Made by a program: the position numbers and the translations under genes
In this document: one piece after another, positions 7,684 to 21,142 of the stretch
Numbering within the stretch: the stretch's first letter is position 1
Layout: each line of letters begins with the position of its first letter
Assembly: GCF_000337195.1 (NCBI RefSeq)
Contig: NZ_AOID01000019.1
Coordinates: forward strand, 1 to 64,000
Direction: 5' to 3'
DNA: 64,000 nt
From: Natrinema versiforme JCM 10478
Lineage (GTDB): Archaea; Halobacteriota; Halobacteria; Halobacteriales; Natrialbaceae
Notes under the pieces: model-generated
Seen by the model: only the letters and a program-made list of their open reading frames with translations
Databases searched by the model: none
Told to the model about the DNA's origin: nothing

Positions 7684-8643
7684 TTACGCTCGGAACGCCT
7701 GCCACGCCGACAGGCGCGTTTCAATCGTCCACTCGGTCGCTGCCGGCGGGTTCTCGCCGGCCTCGTAGACCAATGCATCGTCAAGGAGGTTCCAGACGCC
7801 AGCCTCGCTATCGGTATCGCCGTCGCCGTGTGGAATCTCGGTGTTCCCGATCGTGAGCACGGTTCGGTCGCCGTTGCTCTCTCGGACCGGTTCGACGATC
7901 GCCGGATGTGAGGAGAGCCGGACGAACGAATCGGTCTCGTACTCGCTGGCCGGTTGCTCTAACTCGCGCATATAGGTCAGCGAGGTATCCTCCGGGAGAA
8001 ACGACTTCGCCCACGCGAGTAGTTGGGCGATCCGGCCCCGCGTGTCGCGGACGTAAATCGAGACCGTGCCCGGCTCTTGGTTGAGGACCACCGATTCGCC
8101 CCCATCGGCGATTTCGCCGACGCGAGCCTCGGATTGGTCAATCAGGATTTCGGCGGTCGTCGGGAGTACCGCATCGACGGTATCCAGTACCGCCACCGAA
8201 ACCGGCGTATCGATGGGTTCAGCGATCTCGAATTCGGCGATATTCAGCGTGACCAGCTCGTCCTCGTCTTGGGCGCTGGCCGGGTCGGCGACCGCCGCCG
8301 CGGCCAGCAACGCCCCGAGGAAGGTGAGCAAGCCTCGGCGGGTGTGGGATGTGTCTGTGTCCTCGCCGCGGGTGCTCGCAACGCCAGCGCCGCCAGCGGC
8401 GGTGACTGCAAGCAGGCCATCGGAGTTGTCTTCGCCCTCGCCGGGGAGGAAGGTCATGCGCTCTAAATTGAGCAACCCACCTGCCGGAAAGCCCAGATGG
8501 ACCGGGCCGAAGGCGACGCCCGTGTTCGTCACCCGCAGCGTCTCGGGGGCGTGCAGGTCGTCGCTGTTGGACCTGAGTGTGCCGCCCTCCGGGATATCGG
8601 TTATCGCGGCGCTCTCGGGGAGTGGGATGAATGCGCGTGTCAT
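7684..8643 (-). CDS. protein with internal twin-arginine signal
   Basis: A 319-residue protein. Unusually, the Tat-like signal (HTRRGLLTFLGALLAAAAVA, then DPASAQ) begins at about residue 98, after a 95-residue hydrophilic region. A start at Met63 would give a shorter leader. The last 190 residues are acidic and unrecognised. Its ATG overlaps the stop of a 26-residue Pro-rich reading frame (ATGA), which supports the start at 8643. It may be a membrane-anchored protein with one domain on each side, or a Tat substrate with a long N-region. Confidence 0.75.
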   Translation of the reverse strand: MTRAFIPLPESAAITDIPEGGTLRSNSDDLHAPETLRVTNTGVAFGPVHLGFPAGGLLNLERMTFLPGEGEDNSDGLLAVTAAGGAGVASTRGEDTDTSHTRRGLLTFLGALLAAAAVADPASAQDEDELVTLNIAEFEIAEPIDTPVSVAVLDTVDAVLPTTAEILIDQSEARVGEIADGGESVVLNQEPGTVSIYVRDTRGRIAQLLAWAKSFLPEDTSLTYMRELEQPASEYETDSFVRLSSHPAIVEPVRESNGDRTVLTIGNTEIPHGDGDTDSEAGVWNLLDDALVYEAGENPPAATEWTIETRLSAWQAFRA

Positions 8644-8720
8644 GTGTATCGAAGAATTCGGTCAGTCGGTCTGCGAGTCGTCGGTCGGTCGTCGGGTGGG
8701 GGTTCTGGCGGTGGTGGCAT
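8640..8720 (-). CDS. 26-residue proline-rich mini-protein
   Basis: An ORF encoding MPPPPEPPPDDRPTTRRPTD plus six residues, whose stop overlaps the next start as ATGA and whose start follows the preceding stop by two bases. The tight fit suggests it is translated, perhaps only to couple its neighbours. A similar Pro-rich stretch lies in frame ahead of the surface-protein gene at 4836. Confidence 0.4.
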   Translation of the reverse strand: MPPPPEPPPDDRPTTRRPTDRILRYT

Positions 8721-8722
8721 GG

Positions 8723-8824
8723 TTAGTCCTCCGTAATCAGGTCCTCGCCGCCATCGCGCCAGTTCAAGACCACGCGGATGCGGGTCGGCGCTATGGCTCG
8801 TCGGGGTCGGTCTCTCGAGAACAT
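8723..8824 (-). pseudogene. displaced C-terminal remnant of the Tat-exported 260-residue gene
   Basis: A 33-codon frame whose end reads TRIRVVLNWRDGGEDLITED, closely matching the end of the intact gene at 9975-10757 (ARIRLLLNWRDQGHDELVGE). The two also share the 11-base stretch AACTGGCGCGA. It lies directly after the HNH gene. The simplest reading is that the HNH cassette was inserted near the end of the upstream gene, supplied a replacement 3' end, and pushed the original end here. It may still be translated (ATG at 8824). Confidence 0.6.
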
Positions 8825-8833
8825 GATTGTCTG

Positions 8834-9814
8834 TTAGTCGCTTGCCGCTTGCTCCGGCGCTTCGAACTGTACCGGGAGTCGTTCCCACGTGCTATGGCAC
8901 GATCGGCAGAGCGTGACTAAGTTCTCTGGGTCGTGAGCATCCTCTGGTTCTTCGTAGTTGCGGACAGGGTTTCTGTGGTGAACATTGAGAGATGTCCCAA
9001 ATTCCTCTTGGTGTTCATCCTCGGTTAAGCCACAAGCGAGACACTGGTAGTCGTCTCGCTCAAGGATGTCTTTGCGTATATAAATCCAGTCCGCGCCATA
9101 TTCTCGCCCACCGCCACCCTTCCAGAGAGGACTGTTCTCGCCGCTCATGAAGCCAGTTTCACGGACCCACTCGCCCTGGCATTGTGAGTCACAGAACGTG
9201 CGCTCACTCGCCCGGTGTATCCACGGCGCTCGGAGAACGGGCTCGCCGCAGTTAACGCAGTCCTTTTCGTACTTGACGTACCTCGGATTTCCTTCACCCG
9301 AATACTGCTCGGATTCCCACTTCCCCATGCACTCGCCGTCACAGAAGACGTGGTCAAGCCTCTCGAGTTGTCCCTGCGTTCGTTCAACAGGCGACCCACA
9401 ATGGTCACAAGGGACAGATTCCTTCTCACCGTGCGTCCTATTGATGTCAAGTCCCGCCTCTTGCAGTGCCGCGTTCCATGACCCGAACCGATTTTGATAG
9501 GTCGTCCGGCTTGAGTCAGAATGGTCGTCAAATTCGACCGCCGTGGGTGGCTTCCCGATCTCGTCGGCCACCTCTCGGAGTTGGTCCAGTAGCTCCTCGT
9601 CTGTATACCGAAACGAGGGCGATTTTTCGTACTCATCTGTGGATCTGCCGATCTCATTGAGTGCGCCTTCCCACGACCCGAACCGTGTTGCATACACCGT
9701 GGTGCTGTACGCACCGTCCTCGGTCATTTCGGTTGATTTGGGTGCCCGCCCCAAATCGTCGGCCAACCGGCGAAGTTCCTCGAGAAGGTCTTTCTCGGAT
9801 ATTTTCTCTGGCAT
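8834..9814 (-). CDS. HNH endonuclease with helical repeats and zinc fingers
   Basis: A 326-residue protein. Two copies of a roughly 50-residue helical repeat (DLLEELRRLADDLGRAPKST ... FGSWEGAL) are followed by two CxxC zinc fingers (CDHCG..CDGEC, CVNCG..CDSQC) and a C-terminal HNH domain (LNVHH...NLVTLCRSCH). The repeats are those seen attached to homing-type HNH nucleases and probably read DNA. The start at 9814 (MPEKISEKDLL) mirrors the other HNH protein at 19995-21020. The gene is less GC-rich than the operon around it and has its own inverted-repeat promoter, both signs of insertion. Confidence 0.88.
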   Translation of the reverse strand: MPEKISEKDLLEELRRLADDLGRAPKSTEMTEDGAYSTTVYATRFGSWEGALNEIGRSTDEYEKSPSFRYTDEELLDQLREVADEIGKPPTAVEFDDHSDSSRTTYQNRFGSWNAALQEAGLDINRTHGEKESVPCDHCGSPVERTQGQLERLDHVFCDGECMGKWESEQYSGEGNPRYVKYEKDCVNCGEPVLRAPWIHRASERTFCDSQCQGEWVRETGFMSGENSPLWKGGGGREYGADWIYIRKDILERDDYQCLACGLTEDEHQEEFGTSLNVHHRNPVRNYEEPEDAHDPENLVTLCRSCHSTWERLPVQFEAPEQAASD

Positions 9815-9825
9815 AAGACACGAAA

Positions 9826-9859
9826 CCGTACATAATCTATACGGTGTCATTCCGTATAG
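9826..9859 (-). promoter_or_regulatory. inverted-repeat operator/promoter of the HNH gene
   Basis: CTATACGG and CCGTATAG form a perfect 8-base inverted repeat with a 7-base spacer (9837-9859), and a third CCGTA half-site follows at 9826. The TATAG inside the repeat lies about 27 bases before the ATG at 9814, so a bound repressor would cover the TATA box. Confidence 0.55.
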
Positions 9860-9974
9860 TTGTTTTGCTCCGTATCGGAGGTTTTCAGGCATTTCACGGT
9901 CCGAGTCGGCGGAATTGCCGGTCCTAATCCACCACTCTTTCCAGAGGCCCCGTGGTCGGTTTTTACCTTCATTG

Positions 9975-10757
9975 TTACTCACCTACCAGTTCGTCGTGGC
10001 CTTGGTCGCGCCAGTTTAGGAGTAGTCGAATCCTCGCGAACTGGTAGTCGATCGTAGATTTGTCCCACCACGTCCCAAGCTCAGACACTGAATAGGGGTC
10101 GAAAATGGCCGTGTTATTCGAGGACTTGAACACGCCGTTTTGCTCCCACTGTGACTGCTTATCCAGAAAACTCCCGAATTCAGCGCCCGAAATCGTATGT
10201 GCGGGCACGCCGCGTGTTTCATCGCGTTGGTGGCGGTAGTGGTGGTGCGGGCTTGCGACTTCGAGCGAGGGATGGGTCGGTTGGTCGGTTTCGTCTTGGA
10301 CGAGTGTGATTTCGTCGCCGGACAGCTCGACGGCGAAATGATGGTAGCCTGAATACAGGACTGTTTGCACCTCGCCCGTATCCCTATCCGCCAGTACGAG
10401 CGCGGGCTCGTGATCCTGAAAGTGGGAGTCAGCGGCGAGTAGCGGGCCGAATACCGGGATACTGTCGGACAGTGAATCCTGCTTCGAATACTTGCACCAA
10501 TAGTAGTACGCGCGTGTGTCGTGTTCCTCGCTATCTGCGTACCAGCCGTAAATCCCGATGAGTTGGCGTTGGTCGGTCCACGCGATGTCCAGATACGGCT
10601 CGTATTTGCGTAACTCCGCGAGGTCGTCGCCGACCGATGTGATATGATCGGGCGACCAGTCCGGTGGCGTCGCGGCCGACGCCAGTCCCGGGACGGCGAT
10701 CGTCGCGGCCGTGGCCGTCGCTCCGGTGAGGAACTGGCGTCTCGAGAGTCGTGTCAT
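9975..10757 (-). CDS. Tat-exported protein, 260 residues
   Basis: The N-terminus has a clear twin-arginine signal (LSRRQFLTGATATAATIAV, then PGLASA). The mature protein is rich in Asp, His, Trp and Tyr and is not recognised. The start at 10757 is two bases after the stop of the protease gene. Its last 20 residues resemble the remnant frame at 8723-8824, which implies that the present 3' end came with the HNH cassette downstream. Confidence 0.85.
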   Translation of the reverse strand: MTRLSRRQFLTGATATAATIAVPGLASAATPPDWSPDHITSVGDDLAELRKYEPYLDIAWTDQRQLIGIYGWYADSEEHDTRAYYYWCKYSKQDSLSDSIPVFGPLLAADSHFQDHEPALVLADRDTGEVQTVLYSGYHHFAVELSGDEITLVQDETDQPTHPSLEVASPHHHYRHQRDETRGVPAHTISGAEFGSFLDKQSQWEQNGVFKSSNNTAIFDPYSVSELGTWWDKSTIDYQFARIRLLLNWRDQGHDELVGE

Positions 10758-10759
10758 GA

Positions 10760-12328
10760 TTAGGACACCTGTCGGAAGAGCCACGAGCCAGACATGGCGT
10801 CGTAAGCCCCGCCGCGGGCGGCCGCCTCGTCGGTCTCGGCCGATTCTTGGTCCTCGTCGGGTTCGGTGCCCGCGAGCAGGTTCGCGGCGTTTGGCATCCC
10901 GTGGCCGACCTCCTCGGTGGCCGCCTTCGGGATGGGTTCGGCGGTCCGCTGGAGTTCGTCGCGCACCGTCTCGAGGTCCGTTTCCCCAGAGTCGGCGACG
11001 TAGAGCCCGATCACGCCAGCCGCAACCGGTCCGGCCATCGAGGTGCCGGTTTTCGCGCCCTCACCTGCGGCCTCGAGCGTACAGCCGGGCGCGGCCACGT
11101 CAGGCATCGCGCCTTGGGTCTGGCCGCCGGAGCCGTCGGTCACGCCGTTGTGCGGGCCGATGTTGCTGTAGTAGGCGCTCAGGGCCTCGCTTGGTGGATC
11201 GACTGTCGTCGCACCGACGGCGATTGTGTGCTCGCTCGAGGCGGGGGGGCTAACCCATCGAGTTGCCTGCCTGTCGTTCCCATTTGCCGCCACGGGAATC
11301 ACACCCTCCGAGACGGCGTACTCGAGGGCGTTGGCGATCGACGTGCTGTACTGCGGGCTTCCGAGTGAGAGGTTGAGCACGTCCACGCCCGCGTCGCCAG
11401 CCGCCCGAATCGCCGCCGCGATATTGTCGAGTGACCCGCTGCCCTCGTCGTCCAGTGCCTTGAGCCCGAGGACAGACGCCGCCGGGAGAAAGCCCTCGAG
11501 TGTGGCATCACTCGGCGTGCGAGCGGCAAGACAGGCCGCACACCACGAGCCGTGGCCGTTGCCGTCCGCGACGGCATCCCGGCCGGTCGGGTCGCCGTCG
11601 GCGGTGAAATTCGTCGAGTCGGCGAGCAACCGCGAGTTGCCGTCGGCGTCGTCGAGATAGGCGGCGTTGGTGACACCGGTATCGGCGACCGCGACGGTCA
11701 CCGATGAGGTATCCGGCAGCGTGGTGTCGGCGCTGGTCGCGGCGGTCGCTTCCCGAGCGGCCTGCATCGCCGTCTGTTCCATGTCGCTGTCGAACGCGAC
11801 CCCGTCGGGTTGGGGCACGCCGCCGCCGACCGCCGAGAGGATTGTCGATTCGAGCGCGCCGAAGTCTTGCCATGCGTCGCTGCTTTCGGGCGTGAGTGGC
11901 TCGGCGAGCGTGACCGTGCGATTGATCTCGATACCGCTCGTGTCGATGTACTCCAGGGCAGCGATGCCGCGCTCGCCGAGCAACCGGTCGCGGGTTCGCG
12001 CCCCGATTGCATCGACTGGGGCAACGGCGGAAAGCGTGCCCGCGGCGTCGTGGCGGCGATCGCCGAGTATGGACGTGGTGTCGTAGCTCCCGAGTTCGTC
12101 CTCGAGTGCATCGAGATTGTCCGCGCGTGCGCTCGCGTCCTCGCCCTCGACGGGGATAATCCAGCTAAAGCGGTCGTCGCTGTGCGAGACCGCACCGTCG
12201 GGGGCCGACCAGCCGAGCAGGCCGGGGTCGGTCGTCGGCGCGAGTGACGCCAGCGTCAGCGTGCTCGCGCCCGCGCCGATACTATACAGGTGTTCGCGTC
12301 TCGTCTGTCGGGGTCTGTCGTCGGTCAT
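10760..12328 (-). CDS. Tat-exported subtilisin-family (S8) serine protease
   Basis: A 522-residue protein. A twin-arginine signal (QTRREHLYSIGAGASTLTLA) leads into a pro-region, then a complete S8 catalytic domain: Asp216 in VAVADTGV, His259 in GNGHGSWCA, Asn349 of the oxyanion hole and Ser430 in KTGTSMAGP. Haloarchaeal proteases of this kind (halolysins) are folded inside and exported by Tat. In this operon it could mature surface or virion proteins or open the host envelope; that role is inference. The ATG overlaps the stop of the propeller-protein gene (ATGA). Confidence 0.9.
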   Translation of the reverse strand: MTDDRPRQTRREHLYSIGAGASTLTLASLAPTTDPGLLGWSAPDGAVSHSDDRFSWIIPVEGEDASARADNLDALEDELGSYDTTSILGDRRHDAAGTLSAVAPVDAIGARTRDRLLGERGIAALEYIDTSGIEINRTVTLAEPLTPESSDAWQDFGALESTILSAVGGGVPQPDGVAFDSDMEQTAMQAAREATAATSADTTLPDTSSVTVAVADTGVTNAAYLDDADGNSRLLADSTNFTADGDPTGRDAVADGNGHGSWCAACLAARTPSDATLEGFLPAASVLGLKALDDEGSGSLDNIAAAIRAAGDAGVDVLNLSLGSPQYSTSIANALEYAVSEGVIPVAANGNDRQATRWVSPPASSEHTIAVGATTVDPPSEALSAYYSNIGPHNGVTDGSGGQTQGAMPDVAAPGCTLEAAGEGAKTGTSMAGPVAAGVIGLYVADSGETDLETVRDELQRTAEPIPKAATEEVGHGMPNAANLLAGTEPDEDQESAETDEAAARGGAYDAMSGSWLFRQVS

Positions 12329-15300
12329 TGTGCGTACCTCCGTCGGTGGACGGCGATGCCGGCGAGTCCAAGCACACCGACGAACTCGCCCGATGGGATT
12401 GCGGAGCCGAACGGAACGAGCGACCCGACGAACGGGACGTTGCCGACCCACTGCGAGGCTTGGTGGCTCGCGCGGTCAACGTAGCCAGCCGATTCCACAG
12501 TAGAAATCGTAACGCTGCCGTCAGGCTCGGTGTACGTTCGGATCACGTGTTTGCCCTCCGACGGTTTCTCGACCGAGCCATATCGGGTCTCACCCTCGTG
12601 CGTAATCGGTGCCCCTCCAAATCCGGGCGAGGACCGCCAGTAAAGGGCTTGAGACCGTGGCGATGTCAGGTGAACGTTCGTCGGAATATTGGACTGGACA
12701 GCAGTTTCCGAACTGCCATGCACGACCTCCACGTCGATCGTGTGGGTCGTTCCCTGCATGGCGTTGCTCGGTTTGATGTTCAGTTCGCCCGGGCCATCGG
12801 AATCGTCGGCGATCACATCAACCGAGAGTGTGCCACCGTTGGACTCGAGACGCGCACTCTCGAGTTGTTCGCCCGTGACTGCGTAGACGCCGGTCATCGA
12901 CTGTGGCGAGCCACTGGCCCGGACCGTCGCCGGATCGGAGCGGGACTGTTGTTTCGCGTCGATGCGCTCGCTGACCACGAACTGGTCGCCTTGCTGGTTT
13001 GTATAGGTCAATCGGACGCTGTGCGTGCCCTCGCCGTCAGTTTCGAACGAGGCGCGGTCACGCTCGGAATCGACGGTCGCGGTGATCGGCTCACCGTCGT
13101 CGTTCCACGCCTCGGCGCTGACGAGACTATCGTAGCCGGTATCGTCGGTCGGCGAAATCCCGACGGAGACCTGTTCGCTCGGGCCGGGTGCCAGCGTCGA
13201 GAAGTCCACCGCGTTAATCTGGGGAGTCGAACCGCCGAACGTGGGGTTGGTCGCGCTCACCCGATCGTCGAGAATGCCATCAGTCCCGCCACCGATCAGC
13301 CCGCCGTCGCTGCTCGCAGCGCGGACACGGAGTTCGACACCCGGCGTGTCCTCGGGAATCGGATAGTCAGAGACAGAGAGTGTTTGGCCGCCGAGTCCGG
13401 GGACACCACTGGAGCCGATCGACCAGTAGTCCTCGCCGATCGACTCGGAACTACCATTCGGATAGTGGGCCTCTAGTGCGATGGTGTCGCTATCGATACC
13501 ATCGGGGAGTGGGTACTCGGCGTTAAACAGTCCATCCGATATCTCTGCGGGGTTCTCGCCGCCGAGGTCGGGTGGTTCGATCTCCCCGATGCCCGCCAGC
13601 GCGACCTGCATGTGGGAAGTCTCGCGGGGCAGTTCCTCGGAGGAGAGGTCTTCGGCGGCTTGGACCTCCTCGAAGTCGCTCCGCTCGAGGTAGCGATCTT
13701 CCGCGCCCGGGACCGTTTCGGTCAGCGTCTTGTGGTCGGAATAGATCCGCTCGAGGCTCGAGCGCTCCATCTCTTCGAAGCGCTCGTCGTACTCCGAGCG
13801 GAGTTCATCGACTGTCTCGTTGAGGCGTTGTTCTTCTAAGAACGCCTGCAAGTCGGCGAAGGACTCCATGTTGGAGAACGGCACTTCCGGCGAGCGGTAG
13901 GTCGTCACGGTGACGTTTTCGGCTGGCGGCTCGACGCTCGTGCCGCTCGGATCTGGAAGATAGAACGTGCCGTTGTAGCCCCCGGATTGGATCTCGCGGA
14001 GGTCCTCGATTGACGGATCGGACAGGTCCTCGAGCGACCCATCGCCTTTCATCGCCCGGAGGTCAGTTTTGACGGCGTTTGACGGTACGTCGACGCTGAA
14101 GTGGCCGGTTTCGTTCGTCCGAACCGTGCTCCGGGCGACGTGGTCCTGCGAGAGGAGGTTCCGAATGCGCTCGGCGCGCTGGGTGAGTTGGTCTTTCTCG
14201 TTGCGGAGGTCCTCTTCCCACGCGCTCGAGATATCGCTTGGCGAGCCAACCGTGACAGTAGTCACCGCCGACGGGTTGTCTTCGGGGTAGATCCGATAGA
14301 CGCCCGTCGGGAGCGACGTGCGGACGGCCTCGTATTCCTCGCCGCCGCGGTTGAACGCGACATTCGTCTCGAATTCGACTTGGGTCTCGATCGTGCGTTT
14401 GTCGACGACCTCGCTGGTCGGCGAGAGTTGTTCGATGACGACCGTGCCCTCGGTCAGTTGGCCGGGGTCGATCGAGCTATCGACCGGGCCTTCGCTACTG
14501 ACGAGGCCAGTCGGCTCTTCGGTCGCGTCCCACAGCGAGATGATAACCTGTTCGTTCGACGGGAGCGTGATTCGCGGATCATCGACTTCGGATTTGAGAT
14601 AGCCAGTTCGGCCCTCACTCCAGTCGCTTTCCGTGTGTGCAACCGCGTAGGTGCCGTCGATCCCATCAGCGAACTTTTCGGTGTCGAGTAAGCCGTTACC
14701 AGTTTGGAACTGGTCTTCGAACGACTGCCACTCGTCGGGGAGTGGGTCGGTGAGTTCGGACTGGAGGTCCTCGGCTTGGCGTTTGAGTGATTTGGCGTCG
14801 GATTTGTCGAGTGCCGGTTCCGTTATCGAGTGAGAGACCAGTGTGGCGTTTTCAACTGGGTCGCCGTGTTGATCGGTGACTTGGCCGGTGATTGGTTCGG
14901 ACGTGCTGCCCCCTGTCGTTATAGACTGGGCGACGGTAACTGGCGAAAAGGTATCATCCACAGAACCGCTTCCAGAATCAATTTTGTATACATTTCCGTT
15001 CGCATCACCAGCAAACACAGTCGAGCCATCCGTAGATGAGGTAATTGCGTTCATCTGTACATCATTGGAGTATTGCCAGTCCTCCGTCTCCGAGTCGCGG
15101 TCGTAAGAGACTGCACTATTGATATCGTCAAATGCAATATTGAGATTGTTATCAACAGGCGACTTAGCTAAATCACGGGCTCGAGCGCCACTGTAGTCGC
15201 TAATCGATGATACTTGGCTCTGGTCATCAATGCTGATTGTTCGAACCGAATCGGAATGCCCGCCAGAAGACTCACCACCACCAACATGCAGAACGCCTAA

Positions 15301-15930
15301 TTCGCGGTCCAATTCGAGGCTTTCGACAGAGTCTACAAAGTCATATTCCCATTTTCGATCCCCAGTCTCTGGATCAACGCCATAAACAAAGGTATCTCCT
15401 GCCGAATATACAACCGTACCATCTCCTGCAACGTCTGTGTCTGTGGACTCAAATCCGATTGTGTTTTCGTGGAGGAGGGTTGTTGATCCTGTTTCAGCGT
15501 CAAGTTTAGATAGGTTCCCGTAGCGGTCGCCGACATAGATAGTTCCTGAATTGTCAGATAGCTCAAGGCTTGTCGGGCTGGCCGGAGTTGGGTCTGAGCG
15601 GTAAACTTCCTCCCCGGACACAGCATCGATTCCGACAACAGCGTTCTCGCCAGTCACGTATACGATTTCGTTCTGCGAATCAAGTGTCGTATCGTGGCTG
15701 TACGTACTAAGACTGTTGAATCGCCATATTTCCTCGCCTGTATCCTGATTTTGTGCAACGACAACACCATCTCCGCTAGTATACACTAGATCACCCACAT
15801 CGACATGGTTGGATGCGGAGACAACGCCATTCTCCCCGCTCGTAAGCAGTATTGGTGATGTGACTAGAGACAAGCAGAGGACTGCTACCAGCGAAATCGT
15901 TCGGATCTGTCCGTGGCTAATAGACGGCAT
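12325..15930 (-). CDS. giant exported beta-propeller surface protein
   Basis: A 1201-residue protein. A Sec-type signal (about residues 8-35) is followed by a PQQ-like beta-propeller (about 35-330; blades such as GDLVYTSGDGVVVAQNQDTG and VYVTGENAVVGIDAVSGEEV), then carboxypeptidase-like and immunoglobulin-like regions, a charged coiled region near 690-760, and a C-terminal membrane helix ending in HRRRYAQ. It resembles a long cell-surface or spike protein. DNA for the propeller is less GC-rich than the rest, suggesting domain exchange. An ATG at 16005 would add 25 residues and abut the upstream stop; I chose 15930 for the signal peptide. Confidence 0.82.
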   Translation of the reverse strand: MPSISHGQIRTISLVAVLCLSLVTSPILLTSGENGVVSASNHVDVGDLVYTSGDGVVVAQNQDTGEEIWRFNSLSTYSHDTTLDSQNEIVYVTGENAVVGIDAVSGEEVYRSDPTPASPTSLELSDNSGTIYVGDRYGNLSKLDAETGSTTLLHENTIGFESTDTDVAGDGTVVYSAGDTFVYGVDPETGDRKWEYDFVDSVESLELDRELGVLHVGGGESSGGHSDSVRTISIDDQSQVSSISDYSGARARDLAKSPVDNNLNIAFDDINSAVSYDRDSETEDWQYSNDVQMNAITSSTDGSTVFAGDANGNVYKIDSGSGSVDDTFSPVTVAQSITTGGSTSEPITGQVTDQHGDPVENATLVSHSITEPALDKSDAKSLKRQAEDLQSELTDPLPDEWQSFEDQFQTGNGLLDTEKFADGIDGTYAVAHTESDWSEGRTGYLKSEVDDPRITLPSNEQVIISLWDATEEPTGLVSSEGPVDSSIDPGQLTEGTVVIEQLSPTSEVVDKRTIETQVEFETNVAFNRGGEEYEAVRTSLPTGVYRIYPEDNPSAVTTVTVGSPSDISSAWEEDLRNEKDQLTQRAERIRNLLSQDHVARSTVRTNETGHFSVDVPSNAVKTDLRAMKGDGSLEDLSDPSIEDLREIQSGGYNGTFYLPDPSGTSVEPPAENVTVTTYRSPEVPFSNMESFADLQAFLEEQRLNETVDELRSEYDERFEEMERSSLERIYSDHKTLTETVPGAEDRYLERSDFEEVQAAEDLSSEELPRETSHMQVALAGIGEIEPPDLGGENPAEISDGLFNAEYPLPDGIDSDTIALEAHYPNGSSESIGEDYWSIGSSGVPGLGGQTLSVSDYPIPEDTPGVELRVRAASSDGGLIGGGTDGILDDRVSATNPTFGGSTPQINAVDFSTLAPGPSEQVSVGISPTDDTGYDSLVSAEAWNDDGEPITATVDSERDRASFETDGEGTHSVRLTYTNQQGDQFVVSERIDAKQQSRSDPATVRASGSPQSMTGVYAVTGEQLESARLESNGGTLSVDVIADDSDGPGELNIKPSNAMQGTTHTIDVEVVHGSSETAVQSNIPTNVHLTSPRSQALYWRSSPGFGGAPITHEGETRYGSVEKPSEGKHVIRTYTEPDGSVTISTVESAGYVDRASHQASQWVGNVPFVGSLVPFGSAIPSGEFVGVLGLAGIAVHRRRYAQ

Positions 15931-16014
15931 GGATACGTTGATCACACTGGTCAGCCGAGACCAGCGACTATCGGCGTCGCTCGAGGAGGGCTTTCGGGAT
16001 GGCATCGTATGTGG

Positions 16015-19994: not shown

Positions 19995-21020
19995 CTAATC
20001 TGCGCTGGCCGGGGTATCGTCGGTGTTGTCGGCGTCTCGTGGGTCGGCTTTCACGCGATCCCACTTTGAATGACAGCTTTTGCACAGCGTAACCAGATTC
20101 TCGAGGTCGTCGGGGTCGCCGTCGTCGGTCGCGACGTGATGGACGTGTAGCTGTTGTCCGTACTCCGATTCGTGCTCGTCGCTGCCCATCCCACAGACCA
20201 CACACTCGTTTCCGTCACGATCGCGCACCCGATCCGCGCGGTCCAACCAGTCAGACGGATAGTCGTTGGGCCACGTTCGGTCCGGCGTATCGAGTTCGAA
20301 GCCGGCCGTCTCGAGTGCGTTTCGCAGTGTGTCGAACTCCCGGTAGTACGGCGTCGGCGAGTGGCGGCCGTATTCCTCGAGTTCTGGTTTCGTCGGCGCG
20401 CGGCCGAATATCTCACCAAGCCGCTCGAGGTCGTCCAGTAGGTCGTCCCGATCAACGCGCCGGCCGTAGGACTGTTGCGTACCGGACAGACCAGCCTGCT
20501 CTCGCGCCTCGAGCCACGACCCGAAGCGCCGGACGTAGGTCGTGTGTGCATGGCCAGTTAGTTCTGATATCTCCTCTGCCAGCGGGTCCCGCCCCAACTC
20601 GTCGGCCGCATCCCGAAGCGACTGTAACAGCTCGTCGTCGGCAATATCTTCGCGGTGGTTCGGCTCGAGATCGGCGCGTTCGACGGCGTCGTTCCATCCG
20701 TCGAACTTGTTGTAGTACGGCTGTGTCGAGAACCGACCACGGTCGTTCATATCGACTTTCGTCGGTGTGCCGTCGATTTCGGCGGCCAACTCCCGAATCG
20801 CCTCGAGTAGTTCATCGCGCGACGGCCCCTGTTGGCGCGGTTCGCGCTCGAGGTTAGCTGCGGCGAGTGCGTCGTCGAAACTGTCGAATTCGTTGCTATA
20901 CGGTTGGTAGGAATACTCCGCGTGCTCGCGCACATCGGTCGTCGTCGGCGTCTTGTCGAGATCGGCCGCAAGTCGCTCGAGTTCGGCCACCAAATCGGCG
21001 CGCGTGATCTTCGCGGGCAT
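19995..21020 (-). CDS. HNH endonuclease with four helical DNA-reading repeats
   Basis: A 341-residue protein with four copies of the helical repeat (ELLEAIRELAAEIDGTPTK ... FDGWNDAV) followed by an HNH domain (QLHVHHVATDDGD ... NLVTLCKSCH) with a CVVCG zinc knuckle. It has the same design as the HNH protein at 8834-9814 but twice the number of repeats, which suggests a longer target. The start at 21020 (MPAKITRADLV) lines up with that protein. It is probably a homing-type nuclease or an element-protection enzyme. Confidence 0.88.
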   Translation of the reverse strand: MPAKITRADLVAELERLAADLDKTPTTTDVREHAEYSYQPYSNEFDSFDDALAAANLEREPRQQGPSRDELLEAIRELAAEIDGTPTKVDMNDRGRFSTQPYYNKFDGWNDAVERADLEPNHREDIADDELLQSLRDAADELGRDPLAEEISELTGHAHTTYVRRFGSWLEAREQAGLSGTQQSYGRRVDRDDLLDDLERLGEIFGRAPTKPELEEYGRHSPTPYYREFDTLRNALETAGFELDTPDRTWPNDYPSDWLDRADRVRDRDGNECVVCGMGSDEHESEYGQQLHVHHVATDDGDPDDLENLVTLCKSCHSKWDRVKADPRDADNTDDTPASAD

Positions 21021-21142
21021 TACGCACACCCACCAGTGGTCGGCGCGTGGTCGTCGTCAGTACTAACTACGGTCGTGCCGGTGGACTTAACACCGGTTGC
21101 TGGATAACGTCGCATGGGTTCTGCGAGCCTCAATCGGGAACC

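Follow-up and report, generated by a model that had tools for sequence, protein, structure and literature searches.

A nuclease gene on a plasmid of Natrinema versiforme JCM 10478 appears to have replaced the 3' end of the gene upstream of it, ORF8, and to have left the old end behind. The element is most probably (at a probability of roughly 0.83) a free-standing, end-replacing homing element, the mobile unit of which comprises an HNH nuclease gene and a homologous, diverged 3' end of the target gene. The replacement had been proposed in the preliminary description of this region, and it was supported here by relatives lacking the HNH gene, by the synteny with Natrinema DC36 and by an RPA-like locus of Halopiger xanaduensis.

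Gene order around ORF8 and the nuclease gene

The window, i.e., the whole stretch of 64,000 nucleotides that was analyzed, is part of a 73-kb haloarchaeal contig (G000:C19) belonging to a pR1SE-like plasmid. On the minus strand, the genes follow each other in the order ORF6 (beta-propeller gene, 12325-16005), ORF7 (subtilase, 10760-12352), ORF8 (9975-10757), the HNH gene (8834-9814), an ORF of 33 codons (8723-8824), a proline-rich ORF of 26 codons (MPPPPEPPPDDRPTTRRPTDRILRYT, 8640-8720) and a gene encoding a hypothetical protein (7684-8643). Adjacent homologues of ORF6, ORF7 and ORF8, in an order common to pR1SE and some 20 relatives, identify the window as a pR1SE-like plasmid (apHPV). The accessible part of the survey of pR1SE-like plasmids of haloarchaeal plasmid vesicles (apHPVs; PMC10818511) describes the same host element, with the ORF6 beta-propeller, the ORF7 subtilase and ORF8. 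According to this survey, the products of ORF6 and ORF8 were found by mass spectrometry in pR1SE plasmid vesicles and were suggested to be structural proteins; in the same part, HNH is mentioned solely as a gene close to the core with a possible link to replication, rather than as a homing element within ORF8.

The target gene was recognized as ORF8 by its Tat signal and by the conserved ORF6-ORF7-ORF8 order, and it matches pR1SE's own ORF8 at 33%. It now carries the putative replacement 3' end, terminating in FARIRLLLNWRDQGHDELVGE before the stop codon at 9975, with ARIRLLLNWRDQGHDELVGE as the final residues. The search of genome contigs yielded only five relatives, and no relatives of ORF8 were found in IMG/VR and phage records. 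Near a Tat-signal gene of the plasmid, a TatA-like protein of 55 amino acids is encoded at 5743-5910 (Pfam TatA_B_E, 5.6e-16); another TatA-like match adjoins the counterpart of the window's downstream hypothetical gene in the relative L090.

The HNH gene encodes a free-standing nuclease in which two DNA-binding repeats (HNH_repeat) are followed by a middle part rich in cysteine and, at the C-terminus, by an HNH domain. Both domains were above the Pfam cut-offs (HNH_repeat PF18780, 1.4e-44 and 150.6 bits against 26; HNH PF01844, 8e-8 and 32.7 bits against 21.4), and the catalytic HH...N...H region was intact by eye. The gene had been described as visibly less GC-rich, which was confirmed, its GC content being 0.52-0.58 across the gene compared with 0.68-0.71 in the protease gene. 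The inverted repeat noticed upstream of it, a putative promoter, is also real (CTATACGG and CCGTATAG separated by 7 nt, at 9837-9859); it occurs once in the window and lies in the low-GC stretch that separates ORF8 from the HNH gene (9815-9974, minus strand). A second HNH gene of the plasmid, at 19995-21029, contains four copies of HNH_repeat, and no end duplication was found around it.

The displaced end and its counterparts in relatives

The resemblance between the end of ORF8 (RIRLLLNWRDQGHDELVGE) and that of the short frame following the HNH gene (RIRVVLNWRDGGEDLITED), reported earlier together with a common AACTGGCGCGA, was found again. At the protein level, the match of the two ends scored 58, compared with a maximum of 36 among 69 other downstream regions taken from other HNH loci. 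As DNA, the shared AACTGGCGCGA amounts to an exact match of only 11 nt (E 8). In a looser scan of all frames the window locus ranked below the top 25, since the null was inflated by antisense composition matches. The 11-mer alone would be a chance finding; therefore, the case rests mainly on the relatives.

The preliminary description had stated beforehand that ORF8 should end with the sequence of the remnant in relatives without the HNH gene, and this was the case in two of them. N. thermotolerans A29 (CP031299, L089) and N. pallidum BOL6-1 (CP040639) have no HNH gene at this site, and their ORF8 genes end in RIRILLNWRDGGEDLITES and RIRILLNLRDGGETLITED (...GGETLITED), respectively. The remnant (8715-8784, minus strand), delimited by its DNA match to these HNH-free relatives, shows an identity of 81% over 70 nt with the end of ORF8 in N. 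thermotolerans (E 6e-14) and of 75% over 56 nt with that in N. pallidum. Over the last 51 nt, identity was 78% to N. thermotolerans, compared with 57% to the window's own upstream gene. No relative carrying both gene ends in the absence of the HNH gene was found among those examined. The N. thermotolerans sequence is of uncertain quality because ORF6 and ORF7 are split into several frames there (1527-6729), through sequencing indels or real decay; the last 230 codons of its ORF8 are open, and L088 agrees with them. Additionally, an isolated C-terminal fragment of ORF8 with 52% identity to residues 180-255 was detected at 8706-8933 of L045 (G078:C2), which belongs to a large Natrinema zhouii replicon and has no gene listed there.

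The remnant includes the stop codon and, in addition, a GGAGG that resembles a Shine-Dalgarno sequence and would serve the next ORF. The right junction of the insert corresponds to the segment from the stop codon of the HNH gene to the start of the homology with uninterrupted ORF8 (8785-8833, minus strand); this segment has no DNA match to the relatives' ORF8, and the match starts at about 8784. In Natrinema DC36 (CP084476, L034), the proline-rich ORF and the hypothetical gene follow directly behind an uninterrupted ORF8. The DNA of the proline-rich ORF is 83.5% identical to that of DC36 over 79 nt (E 1e-17), and the hypothetical gene, matched in L034, L089, L090 and L091, is syntenic with relatives having no HNH gene at the ORF8 site. 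Since the DNA following the remnant is that found behind the uninterrupted ORF8 of DC36, the remnant stands exactly where an ORF8 end belongs. These matches identify the remnant within the 33-codon ORF as the old end of ORF8. A tiny proline-rich ORF (MPPPPEPPPDDR...) directly before the hypothetical gene recurs in L034 and L089, its stop codon overlapping the start of the hypothetical gene in both the window and L089, and short proline-rich ORFs are also present after ORF8 in other pR1SE-like plasmids.

The 33-codon ORF (MFSRDRPRRAIAPTRIRVVLNWRDGGEDLITED before the stop codon) might instead function by itself, as a small gene or a leader, since it has an open frame, an ATG and the Shine-Dalgarno-like GGAGG of the next ORF. 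This is very unlikely, as its first ten codons have no match in the relatives and the remainder equals, in frame, the ends of their ORF8 genes. The ORF may have been kept for the ribosome-binding site of the next gene. It is still harder to credit that the remnant is what survives of a second ORF8 paralogue in tandem with the first. Two ORF8-like genes do exist in L036, L037, L041, L043 and L044, but the second of them terminates in another sequence (GWYGADETDDLRG, SDDEDDDTESNGE), and this origin was rejected on these paralogue ends; moreover, ORF8 occurs only once in the relatives that come closest to the remnant.

The resident end of ORF8 was also analyzed. The 3' tract that would have been imported comprises about the last 54 codons (9975-10139, minus strand; its left boundary is uncertain) and was delimited by a shift in amino-acid matches and by rare codons. 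Near codon 207 of 260, the amino-acid matches change from L089-like to L031-like (p 0.005, one of four comparisons); at the nucleotide level, the breakpoint between L031 and L089 gave p 0.06, and the remaining comparisons were not significant. With the closest relatives only 67-73% identical in ORF8, this breakpoint is suggestive only, and so is the chimerism of the window's ORF8. The last 22 codons of ORF8 include four of the rare class (AGG, CTA, CTA and GTA; background 1.8%, post hoc p 6e-4), and the same stretch contains none in four relatives, which would fit an imported or recoded end. The resident terminus HDELVGE resembles HDELIRE of Natrialba aegyptia and HDDLIQE of Halomontanus rarus, and it is of another allelic type (HDEL/HDDL) than the remnant. 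No second HNH-linked ORF8 was found as a possible donor.

The RPA-like locus and the survey of HNH genes

Matches to HNH_repeat were detected in 258 of 391 Halobacteria genomes. A scan of about 197 HNH genes looked for gene ends that recur on the far side of the nuclease gene, and most of these genes gave no detectable end duplication. The anatomy of the window was nevertheless found at other loci, most clearly at an RPA-like gene of H. xanaduensis (L117, on G010:C4), a target matching the NCBIfam family replication factor A, partial. At this locus the RPA-like gene is followed by an HNH gene and then by 41 codons of an RPA-like end with trailing sequence.

In its DNA, the 5' part of the L117 gene shares 90.7% identity with the HNH-free L266. 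Its last 43 codons are 91.5% identical to those of the HNH-linked L116, while the 5' parts of L117 and L116 share only 75%. The L117 remnant, in turn, shows 90.2% identity with L266 and L274, compared with 67.5% with its own gene. The switch in identity is sharp and lies near codon 230 of 286. AU tests rejected L117 and L116 as sisters in the 5' part (p 0.003) and, in the 3' part, rejected the grouping of L117 either with L266 and L274 (p 5e-7) or with its own remnant (p 1e-4). L116 has a switch of its own near codon 205 and, 2.8 kb past its HNH gene, a decayed remnant that matches HNH-free gene ends. Judged by these identities and tests, the RPA-like gene of L117 is a proven chimera, accompanied by a nuclease related to that of the window. 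Candidates for both the sensitive and the resistant allele of this element are thereby available.

In two pR1SE-like plasmids, those of Natrinema DC36 (L034) and L245 (G312:C27), HNH genes occupy the junction between ORF6 and ORF7, and short putative remnants of the ORF6 end (RRYLP and LALLGGGVAAARRVEP, each before a stop codon) are retained downstream together with the ribosome-binding site of ORF7. Moreover, L220 (G379:C10, 313-3028) and L215 (G148:C2) look like a mirror image of this arrangement, with the 5' end of a gene repeated: a truncated start (MKDPE..FAGLDGRTDTELPEWY) precedes the HNH gene and a full gene of roughly 400 codons comes after it, with a small zinc-finger ORF between the copies.

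These loci bear on two further explanations. The first is passive, namely that plasmid recombination joined an ORF8 and its own HNH gene in front of the ORF8 end of another plasmid, the nuclease being a passenger that cut nothing. These plasmids are indeed mosaic, the gene order behind ORF8 varies among L031, L034, L088 and L089, and cleavage by the HNH nuclease is presumed. Passive joining is nonetheless unlikely: the arrangement recurs at two other places, the RPA-like gene and the ORF6/ORF7 junction, in both cases with a nuclease from this repeat family, and the HNH-linked 3' ends of RPA-like genes group according to whether HNH is present rather than with their own 5' parts. The second is a target-site or tandem duplication, in which insertion would have doubled the final 50-70 bp of ORF8, with later divergence of the two copies. 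It would account for the two similar ends that flank the HNH gene, but the remnant of the window is closer to the ORF8 ends of other plasmids (78-81%) than to its neighbor (57%), and the two copies at L117 differ by a third, yet the remnant there is 90% identical to an HNH-free relative. A duplication is thus extremely improbable, and target-site duplication was rejected on the unequal identities of both remnants.

Known end-replacing elements and the proposed mode of homing

The end-replacing reading has precedents in fungi. WHO elements were described in the yeasts Torulaspora and Lachancea (Coughlan et al., 2020, eLife 9:e55336, PMC7282813). As in the arrangement proposed for the window, the nuclease gene lies just downstream of the target gene, homing swaps the target's 3' end and the old end persists as a downstream fragment. 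The WHO unit consists of the nuclease and a 3' end conferring resistance, and 5' and 3' phylogenies are discordant (PMC7282813). Both the 3' fragment of the target downstream of the nuclease gene (the remnant at 8715-8784) and, at L117, the chimeric target gene were found in the archaeal loci. WHO nucleases, by contrast, are intein-like with zinc fingers, target the nuclear gene FBA1 and have been demonstrated to cleave (PMC7282813), whereas the archaeal elements have HNH nucleases with HNH_repeat, reside on archaeal plasmids, occupy several target genes and are presumed to cleave. The window has no intein-like nuclease fused to a zinc finger; in the Pfam search its nuclease contained no intein-type domain, only HNH_repeat and HNH. 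No sequence relation to WHO elements is expected.

A second precedent is provided by the mobile ORFs (mORFs) of fungal mitochondria with carboxy-terminal duplication, known from atp6 of Allomyces and from atp6, atp9, cox2 and nad3 of Glomus (PMC3630166). In these, a foreign C-terminal end and an endonuclease ORF have been inserted and the native C-terminal end lies downstream, and the window likewise has a putative foreign end, a nuclease ORF and a retained native end. The native mORF end is 91% identical to a relative and the inserted end 64%, much as in the window (PMC3630166). The mORFs differ in being mitochondrial, in encoding LAGLIDADG or GIY-YIG nucleases and in that hybrid transcripts have been shown (PMC3630166), whereas the window is a haloarchaeal plasmid with an HNH nuclease. 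Free-standing homing endonucleases of phages (intronless homing, such as T4 SegF; HEG islands) are also located between genes, and they probably spread by repair of the cut in an uninterrupted relative; in the accessible part of that source, a replacement gene end and a stranded old end are not noted (PMC10448857).

The window element would work like WHO elements and fungal mORFs and is a member of neither, because the nuclease family, the host domain and the target genes differ. The mode is thus already known from yeasts and fungal mitochondria; what would be new is the archaeal host, the HNH nucleases and the target genes. In the open-access papers searched, no archaeal or bacterial report of end-replacing homing was found.

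In the proposed mode of homing, the nuclease would cleave uninterrupted ORF8 genes close to the 3' end, and repair from the element's copy would join the 5' part of the recipient to the 3' part of the donor, importing the nuclease gene, with the far side of the insert joined just before the old end of the recipient. The hybrid gene would remain functional and its protein whole, and the nuclease should be unable to cut the new end because it has diverged. The old 3' end of the recipient would stay downstream, still carrying the ribosome-binding site of the next gene, and the position of this site may be the reason why part of the old end survives in pR1SE-like plasmids. We infer a homing function because the target genes are chimeric; cleavage, the resistance of the new end and double-strand-break repair would be its putative steps. 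The homing step is directly testable since haloarchaea are genetically tractable.

Introns and inteins let homing nucleases occupy conserved genes harmlessly because they are spliced out. End replacement would be a second, splicing-free route into conserved genes, in which the element itself supplies a working, diverged gene end. The version with HNH nucleases in archaea suggests that the end-replacing mode arose more than once. It is somewhat more probable than not that haloarchaea host widespread, independently evolved homing elements with a replacement gene end, usually 3' and possibly, in mirror image, 5', employing many HNH_repeat nucleases against different targets on plasmids and chromosomes and constantly reshuffling the ends of conserved genes, among them those for RPA-like and vesicle proteins. 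Such elements would explain why haloarchaeal genomes contain stray 3' fragments and genes with chimeric ends.
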